From NCBI RefSeq assembly GCF_014127285.1, contig NZ_CP059901.1, positions 3,162,001-3,226,000 of the forward strand: DNA of 64,000 bases. Direction: 5' to 3'. The position numbers and the translations under genes were made by a program. The stretch's first letter is position 1, and each line of letters starts with the position of its first letter. The notes beneath the pieces are model-generated. The model was given only the letters and a program-made list of their open reading frames with translations. It was not told the origin of the DNA and did not search any database. Below are positions 55,866 to 64,000 of the stretch, in pieces. Source of the DNA: Mumia sp. ZJ1417 (GTDB lineage Bacteria > Actinomycetota > Actinomycetes > Propionibacteriales > Nocardioidaceae).

Positions 55866-56190
55866 GCGTACCACCCATGTGTCTGCGACGAGCTCAATCG
55901 GGTGGCGGACGAGAGGACCGCGGCCGCGGGTCGGATTCGGACCCCACACATGAGGAGAGAGCATCACGCCGGCGATCCGCGACCCGGGTCTCGGCGTGGA
56001 CGAAGCTCTGCGAAGCAGCGAACCTGCAGCACCCCATCGTCGGCACCTGCAGGTATTTCGACACTAGCACGCACCCACACCCCCCCGTTCGTGACACCGA
56101 ATCTCCCTAAGGTGTTCTCCGCCTGAAGACTTGACAGGTTTGCGATCGCAAATAAAGATGTTTGCGAAAGCAAACGGAAGGAACCTCCTC
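55866..56190. other. Intergenic region between GT4 and VWA genes
   Basis: This 325-nt divergent region holds the VWA promoter and operators (56131-56175) at its right end. ACCTGCAG occurs at 56022 and 56045. The rest, including a C-rich run near 56083, shows no gene or clear structure. Confidence 0.5.
56131..56175 (+). promoter_or_regulatory. VWA gene promoter with two palindromic operators
   Basis: TTGACA at 56131-56136 (-35) is followed 16 bp later by TAAAGA (56153-56158). A perfect 14-bp palindrome TTTGCGATCGCAAA (56139-56152) fills the spacer. GTTTGC-GAAA-GCAAAC (56160-56175) covers the likely start. Centres are 22 bp apart, two helical turns, a typical repressor layout. Confidence 0.7.
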
Positions 56191-58170
56191 GTGCTCTCTC
56201 CCACCTCGCCCCGCGCCCTGCGTCTCCTCGCGGGCACAGCGGCACCCCTTCTCGCCTCGACGCTGCTCTTCCTCCCGCAGCCGGCAGCCGCCGACGGCGA
56301 GACGCCGCAGAAGATGCAGCTGGTCCTCGACGCCTCCGGCTCGATGGCCGAGAACGCCAAGGGCGGAGGCACCAAGATCACCGCCGCCCGCACCGCCCTC
56401 ACCCGCGTCGTCGACACCCTCCCCGACGAAGCCGTCGTCGGCATGCGCGTCTACGGCGCCACCATCGACACCGGCAAGGGCGCCTGCACCGACTCCCAAC
56501 AGGTCGTTGAACCCGGCACCGACAACCGCGACGCACTGAGCACCGCCGTCGGCAACTACAAACCCCTCGGCGAGACCCCCATCGGCTACGCCCTCGCGCA
56601 GGCCGGCAAGGACCTCGGCACCGACGGCAAGCGCACCATCGTCCTGGTCTCCGACGGCGAGTCCACCTGTGACCCTGACCCCTGCAAGGTCGCCCGCGAC
56701 CTGTCCAAGGACGGCATCGACCTCAAGATCGACGTCGTCGGTCTGTCCGTCGACGCCAAGACCCGCAAACAGCTGCGCTGCATCGCCGACGCCGGGCACG
56801 GCACCTACTACGACGCCGACGACGCCGCGTCGCTCACCGAACGCCTCGAAGTCACGTCCACTCGCGCCTTCCGCCCCTTCGACTTCACCGGCACACCCGT
56901 GACCGGCACCGCGAGTGCCTTCGACGCTCCCGAGATCGGAGTCGGGCAGTGGCTGGACAAGGTCCCGATCCGCGACACCGTCGCCTTCTACAAGATCCCC
57001 CGTACGATCCCCGGCTCGACGATCCACGTCGGGGCGACGACCCAGACCCCGGGCGACAGCCTCGGCAGCGGGCTGGTGCTCGACCTGACCGGCACGGACG
57101 GCACGACCTCGTGCGGCAGGGGTACGGCGTTCGAGAGCGCGATCGGCGGCACGAACCTCGTCAGCGGGAGCGTCAACAGCTGGTCGAGGGCACCGAAGCC
57201 GGTCTGCGACGACGCAGAGGAGCTGACTCTCAAGATCGAGATCTCCGTCGACGACAGCCTCGCGGGCGCTCCGGTCGAGATCGTCGTGTACGAGGAGCCG
57301 CCGCTGGCCGAGGGGACGCTCGCGCAGCTCCCCGCCGAGGAGGGGACCCCGCAGTGGGAGCACATGGAGCCCGGGACCGCGACCGCTGAGGTCATCCCCG
57401 GGAGCAGCATCGCGAATGCGCCGGTCATCCAGGCCGGCACGTACCGCCTCGACATCCGATCCGGCGAGCGCCAGGTGCTCGCCGTGCCGCTCGCGTGGGG
57501 TCAGCACCTCCAGGCGCAGATCGACGCGACGCTGACCAAGCCCGCGTACGACGGCGCGGGCGCCTGGAGCGGCTTCGACGTCCACGTGGTCGGCCCGACC
57601 CGTTCCGACGCCACGGCGACGCTGTTCCCCAACCCGCCGGACGACTGGCGAGCCGGGATCCCGTTCGGGAACATGTGGATCGAGGACGACAAGCACTGGC
57701 GTCGCGGCGCCACGACGGTGCCGGTCACCTACCTCAACCGCGCCTCGGCGAAGGGCGAGGTGAGCGCGTCGACGCTGCCCGGCTACCGGTACGTCGACGT
57801 CGGATTCGTCAACCGGGCCAACGACTCGGCCGTCATCACGTACGACCTCACGGTGAAGGTCTTCGGCGAGGAAGGCGCAGGTGCACCGGAGTACGCCGAC
57901 GACGCGAGCCTGCTGACGCCGGACACGGACGACTCTGGTCCGGCACCCACCGAGACGTCGACCGATGACGACGGGGACCTCACGGCAACGGCGGCGCGCG
58001 ACGACGGCGACGACTTCCCTTGGCTGCCAGTCGGTGTCGGCTTCGCCGGTCTGCTGCTGGTCGCCGGCGGCGGCCTTGCGGTGCTGCTGACGCGGCGCCC
58101 CAAGCCCACCACGCCTCCGACCCCACCTCCGCACCAGCCCTGGAACGGACCAGGTCCCGGCGGTTGGTGA
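56191..58170 (+). CDS. Membrane-anchored extracytoplasmic VWA-domain protein
   Basis: This 659-residue protein has a signal peptide (cut near residue 35), a VWA domain (about 41-215) with the metal site D47-A-S-G-S and LVSDGEST, then about 390 residues of beta-rich modules. An acidic Asp/Thr linker leads to one membrane segment (611-633) and a Pro-rich cytoplasmic tail. It probably binds a surface or protein partner. The GTG at 56191 has GGAAGGA eight nt upstream; upstream codons lie in the promoter. Codon use shifts sharply near 56,900. Two palindromes on its promoter imply tight repression. Confidence 0.88.
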   Translation: MLSPTSPRALRLLAGTAAPLLASTLLFLPQPAAADGETPQKMQLVLDASGSMAENAKGGGTKITAARTALTRVVDTLPDEAVVGMRVYGATIDTGKGACTDSQQVVEPGTDNRDALSTAVGNYKPLGETPIGYALAQAGKDLGTDGKRTIVLVSDGESTCDPDPCKVARDLSKDGIDLKIDVVGLSVDAKTRKQLRCIADAGHGTYYDADDAASLTERLEVTSTRAFRPFDFTGTPVTGTASAFDAPEIGVGQWLDKVPIRDTVAFYKIPRTIPGSTIHVGATTQTPGDSLGSGLVLDLTGTDGTTSCGRGTAFESAIGGTNLVSGSVNSWSRAPKPVCDDAEELTLKIEISVDDSLAGAPVEIVVYEEPPLAEGTLAQLPAEEGTPQWEHMEPGTATAEVIPGSSIANAPVIQAGTYRLDIRSGERQVLAVPLAWGQHLQAQIDATLTKPAYDGAGAWSGFDVHVVGPTRSDATATLFPNPPDDWRAGIPFGNMWIEDDKHWRRGATTVPVTYLNRASAKGEVSASTLPGYRYVDVGFVNRANDSAVITYDLTVKVFGEEGAGAPEYADDASLLTPDTDDSGPAPTETSTDDDGDLTATAARDDGDDFPWLPVGVGFAGLLLVAGGGLAVLLTRRPKPTTPPTPPPHQPWNGPGPGGW

Positions 58171-58188
58171 CGGCTGGTTGGTGGCGGC

Positions 58189-59196
58189 TCAGCCGAGCAG
58201 CAGCACGCCCATGACCGCGAGAAGGACGATCCCGAGCGCGATCGAGGCATAACCCGCGCTCCTCAACGGGGCACGCCCACGCGTCGTCGCCGGAGCCTGT
58301 ACGGGTTCCGGCGGCGGCGTGCCGGACTCCTCCGGCTCAGGCCCCGCACCGACGGACTCGCGAGCGACGTGTTCGAGCACCTCGATCTCGCGACCCTCGT
58401 CGTCCGGGATCGCGTCGCCCGCAGGCACTAGTGCCGTACGGGCCAGCAGTGCCCGTGCGGCACCGGCCGAGGCCGGTCGGGCTCCGGGATCGGGAGCGGT
58501 GAGCGCCACAGCCACCTTCCAGAGCGCGGGGTCGACACCGGACGGCGGCTTCTCGACCAGGCGTCCGGCGCCGTCCGGAGGGCGGTCGCCGGTCAGCATC
58601 TGGACCAGGACGACGCCCGCTGCCCAGAGGTCCTGCGCGGGGTCCGGCTCGGCGCCGACGAGGACCTCCGGTGCTCGATAGCCTCTCGTCCCTAGTACGA
58701 CCGCCGGGGCGGTCATCCGCGGCTCATGGACCGGGGCGGCGACTCCGAAGTCACCGAGACGCAGGTACGGCCGCCCGGCACCGGTGGGCTCGAGGAGGAG
58801 ATTCGCGGGCTTCACGTCCCGGTGCACCACGCCCGCCGCGTGGACAGCCGAGAGGGCGTCGAGCAGCTGGTCGAGCAGGCAGGCGACCCACTCGGGAGGC
58901 AGGCTGCCGTAGTCGCGCAGCAGGTCGTGCACCGATCCGCCCCGGACGACGTCCATCGTGAACAGCACGGTGTCGTCCGCACCGGCCCATCCACGCGGCG
59001 TCACGGTGTGCGGATGGTCGATCCGCACACTCTGCTCGCGCACGAACCGCAGCAGAAGGGCTGCATCGGCCTGCCGGATCATCTTTGCTGCACGACGGAC
59101 GCCGTCACGTCGGTCATGGACCAGCCAGACCGTGCCCATGCCGCCGGACCCGATCGGCTCCAGGAGCTCGTACCGGCCGGCGAAAACCTCACCCAT
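58189..59196 (-). CDS. Membrane-anchored serine/threonine protein kinase
   Basis: This 335-residue PknB-like kinase has the glycine loop GSGGMG (16-21), Lys38, catalytic HRDVKPAN (H125, D127, K129) and DFG at 149-151, so it should be active. A short Pro-rich linker follows the kinase domain, then one membrane segment at about 312-334 with almost no outside part; no PASTA repeats. The ATG at 59196 overlaps the upstream XRE gene by eight nt. Its targets are unknown; the XRE protein is an obvious candidate. It converges on the VWA gene. Confidence 0.92.
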   Translation of the reverse strand: MGEVFAGRYELLEPIGSGGMGTVWLVHDRRDGVRRAAKMIRQADAALLLRFVREQSVRIDHPHTVTPRGWAGADDTVLFTMDVVRGGSVHDLLRDYGSLPPEWVACLLDQLLDALSAVHAAGVVHRDVKPANLLLEPTGAGRPYLRLGDFGVAAPVHEPRMTAPAVVLGTRGYRAPEVLVGAEPDPAQDLWAAGVVLVQMLTGDRPPDGAGRLVEKPPSGVDPALWKVAVALTAPDPGARPASAGAARALLARTALVPAGDAIPDDEGREIEVLEHVARESVGAGPEPEESGTPPPEPVQAPATTRGRAPLRSAGYASIALGIVLLAVMGVLLLG

Positions 59197-59647
59197 CGGC
59201 GCCGTACCTGCGCAGCAGCGCCGCGATCCGCGGTTGGGCGTCCGCGACGAGGGCGGCCGCCTCCTCGAAGTCCGACGCGGAGCCCTCCGTACGGAACAAC
59301 GCGCGCACCGCGCTCGCCTCGGGCGTCGTCCACGAGGTCACGACCGCGACCCCCTCCTGGGACGCGAGACCGGCGAGCGCCTCCTCACGGGTCGCCCGAC
59401 CGGACGCGACCCCCTGTGCCGCGGCGTACATCGCCTGCAGCCGAGACACCGCAGCCGGGTTGCCGATCTTGACGCGGTGCCCGTTGGCCAGCTGCGACAG
59501 CATCGGCGCGGAGATGCCGAGCGCCGCCGCGACCCTCGCCTGGGTCAGCCCGAGCACCTCCGCGCAGCGCCGGACGATGACCCCGAGCGGCTCCCCGTAC
59601 AACGCCGCCTGCGCGCGCTGGTTCGCCTCCACGTCGGGTCCGCTCAT
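59189..59647 (-). CDS. XRE-family helix-turn-helix regulator
   Basis: This 152-residue protein has an XRE/Cro-type helix-turn-helix at about residues 20-60 (LGVIVRRCAEVLGLTQARVAAALGISAPMLSQLANGHRVKIGNP). A C-terminal helical half has RATREEALAGL and an acidic end. It likely represses or activates neighbouring genes. TAAGGT seven nt before the ATG at 59647 indicates a leaderless message. It is translationally coupled to the kinase. No DNA site could be assigned. Confidence 0.85.
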   Translation of the reverse strand: MSGPDVEANQRAQAALYGEPLGVIVRRCAEVLGLTQARVAAALGISAPMLSQLANGHRVKIGNPAAVSRLQAMYAAAQGVASGRATREEALAGLASQEGVAVVTSWTTPEASAVRALFRTEGSASDFEEAAALVADAQPRIAALLRRYGADG

Positions 59648-59740: not shown

Positions 59741-61522
59741 GTGACCCACACCCAGGGCATCCGTCCACTGACCAAGGTCCTCATCGCCAATCGTGGCGAG
59801 ATCGCGGTCCGTGTCATCCGCGCCTGCAAGGACGCGGGGATCGGCAGCGTCGCGGTGTACGCCGACGCCGACCGTGACGCGTTGTTCGTCCGGCTCGCTG
59901 ACGAGGCGTACGCCCTGGGGGGCGCAACCCCGGCCGAGACCTACCTGTCGATCGACAAGATCCTCGACGTCGCCCGGCGCGCCGGCGCCGACTCCGTCCA
60001 CCCCGGCTACGGCTTCCTCGCCGAGAACGCCGACTTCGCGCAGGCCGTCATCGACGCCGGGCTGATCTGGATCGGCCCGCCGCCGCACGCGATCGAAGCC
60101 CTCGGCGACAAGGCGAAGGCCAAGCACATCGCCGAGCGGGCCGAAGCCCCCCTGGCCCCGGGCACCAAGGATCCGGTCGCCAACGCCGACGAGATCATCG
60201 CCTTCGCCAAGGAGTACGGACTCCCGGTCGCGATCAAGGCGGTCTTCGGCGGCGGTGGGCGAGGGCTCAAGGTCGCACGCACCCTGGAGGAGATCCCCGA
60301 GCAGTTCGACTCCGCCGTCCGCGAGGCGGTCACGGCGTTCGGGCGCGGTGAGTGCCTCGTCGAGAAGTTCCTCGACCAGCCACGCCACGTCGAGACCCAG
60401 TGCCTCGCCGACTCCCACGGCAACGTCGTGGTCGTCTCCACGCGCGACTGCTCGTTGCAGCGCCGCCACCAGAAGCTCGTCGAGGAGGCGCCCGCGCCAT
60501 TCCTGACCGACGACCAGATCGAGCGCCTCTATGCCTCCTCCAAGGCGATCCTGCGCGAAGCCGGCTACGTCGGTGCCGGCACGTGCGAGTTCCTCGTGGC
60601 GCGCGACGGCACTATCTCGTTCCTCGAGGTCAACACCCGCCTGCAGGTCGAGCACCCGGTCTCGGAGGAGGTCACCGGCATCGACCTCGTCCGCGAGATG
60701 TTCCGCATCGCCGCCGGCGAGGAGCTCGGCTACGACGACCCTGAGATCCGCGGGCACTCCATCGAGTTCCGCATCAACGCCGAGGACGCCGGACGCAACT
60801 TCCTTCCTGCCCCGGGCACGCTGACCGTGTGGGACCCGCCGGCCGGCCCGGGCGTCCGTGTCGACTCGGGCTACGTCGTGGGCGAGACCGTGCCGGGGTC
60901 GTTCGACTCCCTGATCGCCAAGCTGATCGTCACCGGCAACAGCCGTGAGCAGGCGATCGAGCGCTCGCGCCGCGCGCTCGACGAGTTCGCCGTCGACGGC
61001 ATGCCGACCGTGATCCCGTTCCACCGCCGCGTCCTCGACGACCCCGCGTACCTCGGTGACGGCGAGCGCTTCGACGTCTACACCAGCTGGATCGAGACCG
61101 AGTTCGACAACACCATCGCCCCGTACGCCGGTGGCGCCGCGGAGGCGCCCGAGACGGCCGAGCGCGAGACGGTGGTCGTCGAGGTCGGCGGCAAGCGCCT
61201 CGAGGTCGTCCTGCCCGCAGGGCTCGGCGCCGTCCCCGGAGGAGCCGCCGCAGGTGCCGCCAAGAAGCCGAAGCGCACCGCCAAGAAGGCCGGCGCCGCC
61301 GCCAGCGGAGACGCCCTCGTCTCGCCCATGCAGGGCACCATCGTCAAGGTCGCCGTCACCGACGGCCAGGTCGTCGCCGAGGGCGACCTCGTGGTCGTTC
61401 TCGAGGCGATGAAGATGGAGCAGCCCCTCAACGCCCACAAGGCCGGCACCGTCACCGGACTCGTGGCGATTGCGGGCGAGACCATCTCCGCCGGTGCGGT
61501 CGTGGTCGAGATCAAGGACTGA
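59741..61522 (+). CDS. accA: Acyl-CoA carboxylase alpha subunit (biotin carboxylase plus carrier domain)
   Basis: The 593-residue subunit carboxylates biotin with ATP and bicarbonate. The ATP-grasp biotin carboxylase covers about 1-450 ([48 protein letters not shown]). A Lys/Ala-rich linker leads to the biotinyl carrier domain with modified Lys558 in EAMKM. It pairs with AccD and AccE encoded 10 kb away; in mycobacteria this is AccA3. GTG at 59741 follows GAGGAG by about six nt. TAGACT at 59702 may be the -10. Confidence 0.95.
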
Positions 61523-61528
61523 CCCGCG

Positions 61529-62851
61529 GTGCGGGGGGACGCGGCGCGGCGACGCGTCGCACGGGAGGCTGTGCGGACGGCGGGTGCCGTGCTCGTGCTC
61601 GGCGTCGTGCTCATCCCCTCCCCCGCCCTCGCCTCCGCAGAGCCTGCGTCATCGCGCGATGCCGCCCGTACGGTCGACGAGATCGCTGCAGCCTTGAAGG
61701 AGGACCCGGTCCTCGTCCAGCAGGTCCTCGGCAACGGCGACGCTGCGGGCGCGGAGGAACGGATCAGCGACGCGATCGCCGACGCCGACGTCCCGGTGTA
61801 CGTGGCCCTGGTGACCAAGCCCGGCGGACTCTCGGCGAGCGCCGCGTCGAAGGATCTCGCGATCCGCCTCCACTCGCGTGTCGGAGACGGCATCTTCATC
61901 GTCGGGATGCCGAGCGAGGTGCTCGCGCTCGAGGCGTGGGGGGCGCCCGACGCTCTCGGGCTCTCCGGTGCCCGGTACGACGCTCTCGAGAAGGCCCACC
62001 CGATGGTGGACTCCGACAAGGGGCTCGCCGATGTCGCCGAGGCCCAGATCGTTGCGACGATCGCGGCGGGCGGAGATCCCTGGGGGATCGACGACTCCGC
62101 GCTCAGGGAGATCGCGAGCGCGCCGTGGGCAGTGCGGCCGGACTCGCTCCCCCGCGACTACGACGCCGCCACACCCGGAGGCCGAGCCGTCATCGCGACG
62201 GTCGCCGGGCTGGGGGTCCTGCTCGTCGGTCTGCGCGCCCTCCTGTGGACGACCGCGCGCCGCGACCCGGCAAAGGCGAAGACTCCTCCGCTGACCGTGT
62301 CCGACCTCGACCTTGCCGACCTCGTCGCGAGAGCGAACAGCGAGACCACGCGTCTCGCGGAGGCGCTGGCCAACGCACGCTCGTCGTCGTACGCCGACAC
62401 CGCGACGGGATATCTCGGGGCTGCCGAGGCCGTGCTGCGCGGTCTCGATCCGCTCGTCGAGCCCCGGGCCCCCCGGGCGTACGGGCGCCAGCTGCGCGAC
62501 GCCGTCGGAGCGCTCGTGCTCGCCCGCTCCGGGCTGTACGAGCTCGACCGCGACGGTCGCAAGAACGACCGCGGTCGTTATGTCACCTGCTTCTTCAACC
62601 CTCTCCACGGCCGTGCGGACACCTCGCTCGAAGTCCCTGGGAGGGGCGCCGTCGTCGTCCCGGCATGCCGGCAGTGCGCCCACGCTGCGAAGCACGGCAA
62701 GCTCCCCGACGCGCTGGTGTTCGCGTACCCGTCGCGCCGACCCAAGCCGTACTACGAGGAGAAGTCCGTGTGGGCGCGCTCCGGCTACGGCGCCCTCGAC
62801 GGTGAGCTGTGGGCTACCGTGACCGCCGAGTCTGCAGGGGCCGGCCGATGA
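61529..62851 (+). CDS. Membrane protein with divergent TPM-like N-terminal module and CFFNPLHG motif
   Basis: This 440-residue protein has a signal or anchor segment (about 18-36), an extracytoplasmic alpha/beta module (about 45-200, with VPVYVALVTKPGG and GDGIFIVGMP), and a membrane segment at about 208-230. The cytoplasmic part carries a three-Cys motif, CFFNPLHG then PACRQC, perhaps a metal site. The module resembles the TPM/YgcG fold loosely; homology is uncertain. The GTG at 61529 lies 7 nt after accA. It overlaps the next gene (ATGA). Function is unknown. Confidence 0.65.
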   Translation: MRGDAARRRVAREAVRTAGAVLVLGVVLIPSPALASAEPASSRDAARTVDEIAAALKEDPVLVQQVLGNGDAAGAEERISDAIADADVPVYVALVTKPGGLSASAASKDLAIRLHSRVGDGIFIVGMPSEVLALEAWGAPDALGLSGARYDALEKAHPMVDSDKGLADVAEAQIVATIAAGGDPWGIDDSALREIASAPWAVRPDSLPRDYDAATPGGRAVIATVAGLGVLLVGLRALLWTTARRDPAKAKTPPLTVSDLDLADLVARANSETTRLAEALANARSSSYADTATGYLGAAEAVLRGLDPLVEPRAPRAYGRQLRDAVGALVLARSGLYELDRDGRKNDRGRYVTCFFNPLHGRADTSLEVPGRGAVVVPACRQCAHAAKHGKLPDALVFAYPSRRPKPYYEEKSVWARSGYGALDGELWATVTAESAGAGR

Positions 62852-63522
62852 CGTGGGTGCGCACGATCGGTGCTGTCGTCGTCACTGCCGTGGCAGCGAG
62901 CGCTGCCGTCCTCGCCGTCCAGGTCTACGAGGGCAGGCACCCCGACTCCGACGGACCCCTGCCGCGTCCAGGTGATCGGGCGACGGACGCCGTCGCCGCG
63001 CTGACCGAGAGCCACCTGTACGTCGCTCCGGAGCTGCAGGGCCTCCTCACGCCCGAGGAGCAGGCACGCGTTGCTGCCGCAGCAGCGGCGTCGGAGCCGG
63101 CGGCGTTCATCGCGCTCGCAGGCAAGGGCCAGGCCGGCTACTACCTCGACGCCGACCTCCAGGAGTATCTCCTCGACGGCGTCGCGGTCGACGGGTCGTA
63201 CCTCGTGTGGGACGGCGAGAGCCTGTACGCCGACGAGAAGACACGCGGCGGCCAGCTCGACGACATGGCCGAGACGGACATGGCGGGCAAGACCGAGGCC
63301 GCGCTGATGCGCTACGTCGACTCGGTCGACGGCAACGAGATCAGGCCGTTCGAGCGCTTCGACTACTGGGGAGGTCCCGGCGGTGGATTCACCGCCGGTC
63401 TGCTCATGGTGTCCGGCGGCTACGCGGCACTCATGCTGCTGCTCGGCACCGTCCGCGCCCTCGGCGGCGCCTCGTTCCTCCTGCCAGGACGCTGGCGCGA
63501 CTTCTTCCGGAGCACCGCATGA
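62848..63522 (+). CDS. Membrane protein sharing the TPM-like module
   Basis: This 224-residue protein has an N-terminal membrane segment (about 5-26), an extracytoplasmic module (about 42-130: ATDAVAALTESHLYVAPELQGLLTPEEQARV and PAAFIALAGKG), and a second membrane segment (about 184-206). The C-terminus is short and basic. The module matches its two neighbours in phrase order: an AL segment, a YV-x-P-L strand, TPE, then a hydrophobic strand. ATG 62848 overlaps the previous stop (ATGA). Function is unknown. Confidence 0.65.
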   Translation: MTWVRTIGAVVVTAVAASAAVLAVQVYEGRHPDSDGPLPRPGDRATDAVAALTESHLYVAPELQGLLTPEEQARVAAAAAASEPAAFIALAGKGQAGYYLDADLQEYLLDGVAVDGSYLVWDGESLYADEKTRGGQLDDMAETDMAGKTEAALMRYVDSVDGNEIRPFERFDYWGGPGGGFTAGLLMVSGGYAALMLLLGTVRALGGASFLLPGRWRDFFRSTA

Positions 63523-64000
63523 CCACAGAATCCTCGCGTGCCGACCTTGACGCCATCTGGGCCGCGCTGACGGACTCCGGCGTGTACGTCCACCCCTCGC
63601 TGGCCTCCAAGGTCACGCCGGAGCACGTGAGCCAGATCCAGGCGAACGTCGCGCGGATCGACGAGCCGGTCTTCGTCATCGCGTACCCGCTCAACTACGA
63701 CGACGAGTTCAACGGCGGCGTCGACGACCTCGTCGCCACGCTGCACGACCATGACCCGCAGCCCGGGATCTACCTCGCGACCGACACGAAGTTCGGCGAG
63801 GTCCGCATCGGGGGCAAGTCGTGGGACACCGACACCGACGACTACGGCGTCTCCCAGGCCGGCTACGCAGCCGGCCACAAGGAGCCGGACAACCTCGGCG
63901 ACCAGCTCGTCGCCGCGACGCAGATGATGGCGGACGGGACTGTCGCCGAGGGGTACGCGGCTTTCGAGGAGGCGGCCGCCGCCAGGCGCGAGTCCTCGCA
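63519..64000 (+). CDS. Third member of the TPM-like cluster, 3' end cut by window edge
   Basis: This frame is open from the ATG at 63519 to the right edge (160 residues so far). It begins MTTESSRADLDAIWAALTDS and continues VYVHPSLASKVTPEHVSQI, then PVFVIAYPLNYDDEF and GIYLATDTKF, the clearest version of the shared module. No signal peptide is seen, so the module may be cytoplasmic or attached later. It overlaps the previous gene as ATGA. The C-terminal part is outside the window. Confidence 0.65.
   Translation, partial: MTTESSRADLDAIWAALTDSGVYVHPSLASKVTPEHVSQIQANVARIDEPVFVIAYPLNYDDEFNGGVDDLVATLHDHDPQPGIYLATDTKFGEVRIGGKSWDTDTDDYGVSQAGYAAGHKEPDNLGDQLVAATQMMADGTVAEGYAAFEEAAAARRESS

Follow-up and report, generated by a model that had tools for sequence, protein, structure and literature searches.

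The three genes at the locus

At the right end of a 64,000-nucleotide stretch of the Mumia sp. ZJ1417 genome (4.19 Mb), referred to here as the window (G000:C1:3162001-3226000), lies a cassette of three overlapping genes, P1, P2 and P3, a genuine variant of TPM-fold membrane proteins that comes as a set of three genes. In the window none of the three proteins described here has a match over cut-off in Pfam or NCBIfam, and PADLOC finds no match for the cassette; Croc_4, YlxR, PrgU, RnpM and similar candidates fall below their own cut-offs. The cassette is made up as follows.

61529..62851, + strand: P1, GTG start, 440 amino acids; signal-like N-terminus, TPM-type module, one membrane helix, predicted cytoplasmic helical domain and zinc-type site
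61667..61948, + strand: P1 N-terminal TPM-type module, about residues 47-140, placed by profile-profile comparison with the P2 and P3 modules
62177..62233, + strand: P1 membrane helix, about residues 217-235, from hydropathy
62588..62677, + strand: P1 site C354-x5-H360 ... C380-x2-C383, invariant in 28/28 P1 rows
62848..63522, + strand: P2, 224 amino acids; membrane helix, TPM module, membrane helix and short tail, without a zinc-type domain
62971..63345, + strand: P2 TPM module, about residues 42-166, from an AlphaFold model
63519..64712, + strand (window part 63519..64000): P3, 397 amino acids; TPM-type module, one membrane helix and zinc-type domain

An earlier note on this DNA, made from the letters alone, had described three genes overlapping by ATGA and advised reading beyond the right edge. 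Both junctions, P1/P2 and P2/P3, are indeed ATGA overlaps, and reading on in the genome completes P3 to 64712 and reveals its membrane helix and zinc-type domain (C314, H320, C341, C344), all encoded past the window. The note's step from such overlaps to equal expression went too far, as an overlap suggests translational coupling. Among related loci the overlap is exactly four nucleotides at 35 of 50 P1-P2 and 26 of 47 P2-P3 junctions, counts that rest on our own gene calls and include some genomes entered twice. The same caller set all gene starts; it overlooked P1 in L046, L089 and L157 and P2 in L161, which were recovered by six-frame search.

A scan of named genomes with the P3 alignment found 38 loci in Mumia, Nocardioides, Jiangella, Phytoactinopolyspora, several metagenome-assembled genomes and one Streptomyces. 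The set analysed also numbers 38, with the Streptomyces pair left out and the window added; two loci (L068 and L072) are cut by contig ends, leaving 36.

Homologous N-terminal modules with a TPM fold

The N-terminal modules of P1, P2 and P3 are homologous. Profiles were built from the N-terminal parts of 35 P1 (N1), 39 P2 (N2) and 45 P3 (N3) proteins; a wrongly chosen row was removed from the P2 set, and visual inspection reassigned three P1 rows and five that had been left unsorted. The profiles match one another at E 5.9e-10 for N1-N2 (score 67.4, a pair run without shuffle control), 1.6e-16 for N1-N3 (score 105.2, against 18.8 for the best of 40 column shuffles and 17.1 in the N3-N1 direction) and 3.1e-17 for N2-N3 (score 110.6, best of 40 shuffles 14.8), bearing out a module common to all three proteins, as the earlier note had proposed. 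With single sequences only one module pair is visible: BLASTP matches the P2 and P3 modules at 1e-5, finds nothing between P1 and P2, and confines its match between P1 and P3 to their C-terminal halves. The short strings by which the module had been recognized (I-x2-AL, VYV-x-P-L, TPE, a PVFV-type strand and a GIYL-like strand) occur literally in P3 only. P1 lacks VYV-x-P-L and TPE, its counterpart being IAAALKEDPVLVQQVL...PVYV...GIFI, and P2 deviates, with A in place of the I of I-x2-AL and AAFI in place of PVFV.

The P2 and P3 modules have the TPM fold, as judged from predicted structures. AlphaFold models were made from proteins of the window and of named loci, in an alignment of 35 rows headed by P3 of Mumia xiangluensis, a protein 67-70% identical to the window's P3 (alignment A4), and in one of 31 rows headed by the window's P2 (alignment A5). 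Both models reach a mean predicted local distance difference test score (pLDDT) of 88.7, with module blocks mostly at 90-98 and the lowest at 85 and 81. They have in common a core order of helix, short strand, helix, strand, helix, two strands and helix, to which P2 adds one short helix and P3 one helix at the end. In VIA-align comparisons the P3 model is closest to AtTLP18.3 (3ptj; Z 12.0, 2.9 A over 132 residues), followed by Corynebacterium glutamicum cg2496 (11.3), PG_0361 (11.1), Psb32 (10.9) and BA41 (10.8); the TPM domain of Rhom172_1776 scores 9.7, and two chains of the Mycobacterium smegmatis supercomplex, 6adq chain J and 6hwh chain O, both of which we take to be PRSAF1, score 8.5 and 8.2. 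For the P2 model the best seven VIA rows are all TPM proteins at Z 11.7-9.1, led by 5anp (11.7, 2.9 A over 117 residues), 7tbr (11.6) and 3ptj (11.3), with Psb32 at 9.1; the eighth row is LMTP1 (9h70, Z 7.5), a protein of unchecked kind, and the next, at 3.9, is the first clearly unrelated one. Foldseek likewise puts TPM proteins first for both models, at E 1.1e-2 for P3 and 0.34 for P2. The earlier note's guess of a TPM-like fold is thus supported for P2 and P3, and the two modules modelled have related folds rather than unrelated ones; for P1, profile homology to these modules supports the same placement.

The modules share the TPM fold and yet stand outside Pfam family PF04536, because their sequences are only weakly linked to TPM and the PF04536 model has no hit in the genome. 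The profile search that had been suggested returns no match anywhere in the window's genome, no row for the window's P1, P2 or P3 at E up to 1, and none among 35 P3, 28 P1 and 31 P2 rows at E up to 0.1. Against a profile of 30 related TPM sequences the modules reach a profile-profile E of only 1.3e-3 to 9.3e-3; the scores, each set against the best of 40 shuffles, are 26.5/21.5, 22.0/16.9 and 23.0/21.7, with probabilities of 4-18%, and were therefore not used as proof. By sequence, P3 has no match in the PDB, its profile reaching E 0.12 at best. Six NCBIfam families matched one to four of 35 P3 rows each at E 4e-4 to 9e-3 and are not read as relations.

Few polar residues are conserved in the modules. 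In P3 no column of charged residues, amides, His, Cys, Ser or Thr is conserved at 90% or more; Tyr85 is kept in 33 of 35 rows, and the best polar groups are Asp/Glu at position 77 and Asp/Glu/Asn at position 125, both at 86%. P1 keeps D59 in 28/28 rows, and P2 keeps D43, at the module edge, in 29/31 and Q107 in 28/31, with P1 D59 and P2 D43 in different alignment columns. The alignments, onto which the residues of TLP18.3 were not mapped, hold no polar residue set common to the three modules.

The inner domain and its C/H/C/C site

P1 and P3 also have in common a C-terminal domain (BLASTP 2e-12, profile E 2.6e-41) that consists of helices followed by C-x5-H, a hairpin and a C-x2-C at a helix start. 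The earlier note had assigned this feature, in the form of CFFNPLHG and PACRQC, to P1 alone. In fact P3 has CYFHPLHG and CTQC at residues 314-344, beyond the window. The four residues are kept in all 34 P3 rows that reach the site and in 28/28 P1 rows. The window's own P3 row stops at the edge, short of the site, and its four residues, also kept, were read from the genome; a regular expression for the site missed two of 45 P3 proteins (L059 and L082), in both of which the alignment shows all four. Within the inner part of P3, E248, D267, D286 and the C/H/C/C site are 97-100% conserved.

In the M. xiangluensis P3 model, C316 and H322 precede strands 327-333 and 336-342, with C343 and C346 beside a helix at 344-351. 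This is the element order of a treble clef, namely two ligands, a beta hairpin and two ligands at a helix start, and we infer that the inner site of P1 and P3 binds zinc. Structure comparison of the helical part of the P3 model returned DUF357 (2oo2, Z 9.4) and DnaK lids (about 8), values short of the 13 that the tool requires for helical bundles, and no relation is claimed; the fold searches hardly extended over the four-residue site.

Taken with the few conserved polar residues of the modules, the invariance of this site makes it unlikely that the cassette is an enzyme.

Membrane orientation

The distribution of lysine and arginine residues around the membrane helices suggests that the modules lie outside the membrane and the zinc-type domains inside. 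Lysine and arginine are richer after the helix than before it in 45/45 P3 and 30/35 P1 proteins, and after the second helix of P2 in 36/38. Related proteins of families f20 and f22 start with signal-like stretches, and such a start is seen in 6 of 35 P1 proteins, a count that depends on our own gene caller.

Distribution and genomic arrangement

The three genes are contiguous in all 36 untruncated loci, in the order P1-P2-P3 in 31 and P3-P1-P2 in five. These loci were found through P3, so that sets without P3 would be invisible among them; searches with P1 and P2 cover that case. When 149 genomes of the family were searched separately with P3, P1 and P2, the same 22 gave strong matches each time and the other 127 gave none. 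The cut-offs for a strong match (below 1e-40 for P3, 1e-70 for P1 and 1e-27 for P2) were chosen after the lists had been seen, and they fall within wide gaps, the next best genome standing at 2.8e-13, 6.5e-18 and 1.8e-6, respectively. Weaker matches at 0.001 occur in 73/149 genomes for P3, 82/149 for P1 and 25/149 for P2, and most of them are to the inner domain found in stand-alone relatives. Sampled across the class, 79 of 197 genomes show a P3 match of any strength.

Within the genus, five of six sampled genomes carry the cassette. In the sixth, G038, which is 99% complete, the homologous flanks lie 20 bases apart, against 3,216 in the window, a clean joint absence; this genome still keeps a stand-alone relative. 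The cassette occupies several genomic sites. Triples are doubled in G107 and Nocardioides sp. zg-DK7169, and N. solisilvae has two.

Several variants also occur. Lone matches to the TPM part, in frames of about 208-230 amino acids, occur in cassette-free genomes (G015:C202:21954-22565, G012:C4:29050 and G034:C4:168395), and a diverged P1-like and P2-like pair lies away from the main cassette at G098:C1:1277056-1278440. P3 is broken beside open P1 and P2 genes in Nocardioides lianchengensis, by an in-frame TAG, and in N. alcanivorans, where it is in three pieces (loci L087 and L075), through either decay or sequence error. In family f20 (L162), a TPM-only gene precedes two zinc-type genes, all after a biotin carboxylase. 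A triple of opposite make-up, with two TPM-only proteins and one zinc-type protein, is found at L166 6693-9510 (f22, which we take to be Streptomyces, as its proteins group with those of Streptomyces sp. JJ38), and, at L168 5548-8267 (f23), two adjacent genes encode proteins bearing the zinc-type site that are remote from P1 and P3.

In the window the nearest neighbour is a carboxylase gene.

59741..61522, + strand: biotin carboxylase with a biotinyl domain, ending 6 nucleotides before P1

On the 3' side of the cassette lie genes for a universal stress protein and for pyruvate carboxylase, the latter within about 6.3 kb downstream in at least 15 of 36 loci. Upstream, biotin carboxylase is present in 21 of 35 loci, ileS in six and neither in eight (L063 has too little upstream sequence to be counted). 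A link to carboxylation was rejected as the function in view of the loci with ileS or with neither gene, and the biotin carboxylase is probably a frequent neighbour in relatives rather than part of cassette function. Further upstream, at 56131-59647, lie genes for a von Willebrand factor A protein (+), a serine/threonine kinase (-) and a small HTH-like protein (-), the last just below the Pfam cut-off; the kinase and HTH genes are likewise upstream in L043, L044, L045 and G038.

Duplication, rate of change and stand-alone relatives

Beyond the cassette, the inner domain is found in stand-alone membrane proteins (CFFDPRHG...VPAC..D) in which it is homologous to that of P1 and P3; some relatives also carry a TPM-type module. 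These proteins are encoded by single genes, whereas the cassette is a triple, and 12 of the 17 classed have D as the last of the four site residues. Of the other five, three have C and are fragments of a broken or cut P3, and two are Streptomyces proteins outside the pattern. One stand-alone protein lies in the window's own genome at position 4025200 (L036 7201-8046), with D for the fourth Cys and a tail rich in Gly, Asp and Phe, and its kind is present in many genomes of the family. Relatives of the stand-alone kind with a TPM-type module lie at L082 8808-10061, L083 10344-11591 and L162 13387-14661, near a flavoprotein gene that, from the start of its sequence, presumably resembles dihydrolipoamide dehydrogenase.

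In a tree of 117 inner domains, the P1 proteins of Nocardioidaceae and Jiangellaceae share one side with one f20 paralog and one Streptomyces paralog. P3 of those families lies on the other, with the second f20 and Streptomyces paralog and a stand-alone clade (100/100) that also contains some C-type proteins of f20 and f23. The split between the two sides is weak (74/47), and long branches meet there. The P1/P3 duplication likely predates Nocardioidaceae, Jiangellaceae, Streptomyces and family f20, to judge from this tree.

Compared with three relatives in the genus, P1 is 57-58%, P2 49-64% and P3 68-70% identical; for the flanking genes of the same relatives the values are 90-93% (biotin carboxylase), 93-95% (pyruvate carboxylase) and 74-89% (stress protein). 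Within P3 the module is 52-61% identical in the genus and the inner part 74-84%; in P1 the two figures are 50-57% and 57-62%.

Possible roles of the cassette

We tentatively favour a reading in which P1, P2 and P3 would form one membrane assembly acting as a non-enzymatic accessory, an assembly or stability factor. The three would be subunits descended by duplication from one TPM-fold protein, each setting its TPM module on the outer membrane face. P1 and P3 would span the membrane, their last part forming, on the cytoplasmic side, a helical bundle with a zinc-type C-x5-H/C-x2-C knuckle, while P2 would be anchored by a membrane helix on either side of its module. The three outer modules may bind one another and hold an outward-facing portion of a membrane or envelope complex, in the manner of Psb32/TLP18.3 and PRSAF1, and the invariant inner zinc domains may dock a cytoplasmic partner. 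The homology of the modules, the TPM fold of two of them, the invariant C/H/C/C site and the all-or-none presence of the set were established by computation. A heteromeric complex of P1, P2 and P3 is an inference, and the client and assembly role are at present a guess by analogy. The complex had already been proposed in the earlier note; it fits presence in the same 22 of 149 genomes and the one joint absence.

Several observations weigh against this reading. The cassette evolves fast (49-70% identity in the genus, compared with 90-95% for the carboxylases) and is missing from 127 of the 149 family genomes, both odd for a core-complex factor. Neighbours vary among loci, and no client gene appears among them. 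At the level of fold, Foldseek has no match at E 0.001 for either the P2 or the P3 model. As for topology, the charge bias at the first helix of P2 is slight (one direction in 17 of 39 proteins, the opposite in 12), and none of 45 P3 proteins has a signal-like start. For some 180 residues to cross the membrane without one is unusual, and the reading has to presuppose that the N-terminus of P3 is exported with no signal; the extracellular placement proposed in the earlier note is otherwise made plausible by the charge bias and by the relatives' signal-like starts. We keep the assembly role as a tentative one because a set that diverges rapidly and is often missing could equally be a sensor or serve a particular niche.

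A transmembrane sensor, in which outer TPM modules would sense envelope state or a ligand and the inner thiol cluster would serve as a redox or metal switch to a cytoplasmic partner, is a doubtful alternative with some points in its favour. An invariant inner C/H/C/C beside faster-varying outer modules fits a receptor whose output is fixed and whose input changes, a contrast that is clear in P3 and small in P1, and TPM proteins adjoin PspA in other bacteria according to part of one survey (PMC11237479). Neighbours that differ from locus to locus offer no fixed output gene, as far as they go without a systematic regulator search, and a C/H/C/C site of treble-clef order is usually structural. 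A specific form, in which a heterotrimeric TPM-fold receptor with two inner zinc domains would read an envelope signal or partner through its faster-evolving outer modules and relay it through an inner zinc switch, appears unlikely.

It is less likely still that tandem duplication simply left three paralogs side by side, acting separately, with linkage reflecting descent rather than a complex. All three are paralogous, gene order varies (P3-P1-P2 in 5/36), extra P3-type copies occur in L039 and L080, and there are the lone TPM-like matches of G015, G012 and G034 and the diverged pair of G098. Against separate action, three separate searches arrive at the same 22 of 149 genomes, the triple is found at different sites, doubled, or missing as a whole, and overlapping stops and starts are common.

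Very improbable is a set of TPM-type hydrolases, membrane-bound phosphatases or nucleotidases, for which speak the name that Pfam gives to the family that founded the fold (TPM_phosphatase) and the activities reportedly found for AtTLP18.3 and a Bizionia TPM domain, and against which stand the P3 module without a conserved column of the polar kinds at 90% and the different columns of P1 D59 and P2 D43. A passage of Ravi et al. counts the phosphatase role as one of several competing TPM hypotheses (PMC11237479), and a portion of the lipocone paper deems it unlikely.

With the cassette, the TPM fold, for which phosphatase and assembly-helper roles are debated, gains a branch that lacks annotation. 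A fixed set of three TPM modules with few conserved polar residues favours binding over catalysis, and presence or absence of the whole set in related genomes makes the cassette testable by simple deletion.

Comparison with known systems

No paper on a three-gene TPM set was found by title or abstract start in open-licence PMC, and within that range the variant is undescribed. A family of similar build is that of Rv1476 (PF20381), with an N-terminal module followed by a membrane helix as in the cassette. One of 35 P3 rows, that of Nocardioides solisilvae, passes its cut-off (L070; 30 against 26 bits, residues 4-59), whereas a relative from f20 falls short of it at 20.2 bits; none of 28 P1 or 31 P2 rows passes, and the window's proteins fail the cut-off. 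The Rv1476 profile does not score above shuffles with N1 or N2 and does so slightly with N3 (21.7 against 19.7). Unlike P1 and P3, the PF20381-matched genes stop soon after the helix, without a zinc-type domain.

Closest in fold are the TPM proteins of PF04536, such as AtTLP18.3, Psb32, cg2496 and BA41/BA42, which reach up to Z 12.0 (P3) and 11.7 (P2) with the cassette modules. In L094, too, the TPM module leads into a membrane helix and then a long inner part, as in the cassette. Unlike PF04536 proteins, the cassette combines three paralogs in one operon with an inner zinc-type domain. The PRSAF1-type subunit of the mycobacterial supercomplex is also like the P3 module (Z 8.5 with 6adq chain J); we know of no zinc domain in PRSAF1, unlike in P1 and P3. 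Portions of the literature on these proteins place them at membrane complexes: Msmeg_4692 of the mycobacterial supercomplex has a TPM domain (PMC8267372), PRSAF1 belongs to the mycobacterial respiratory supercomplex (PMC11189923), and TLP18.3/Psb32 act at photosystem II (PMC13089150). In a passage of Ravi et al. (2024), TPM domains are proposed as helpers in membrane-complex assembly (PMC11237479).

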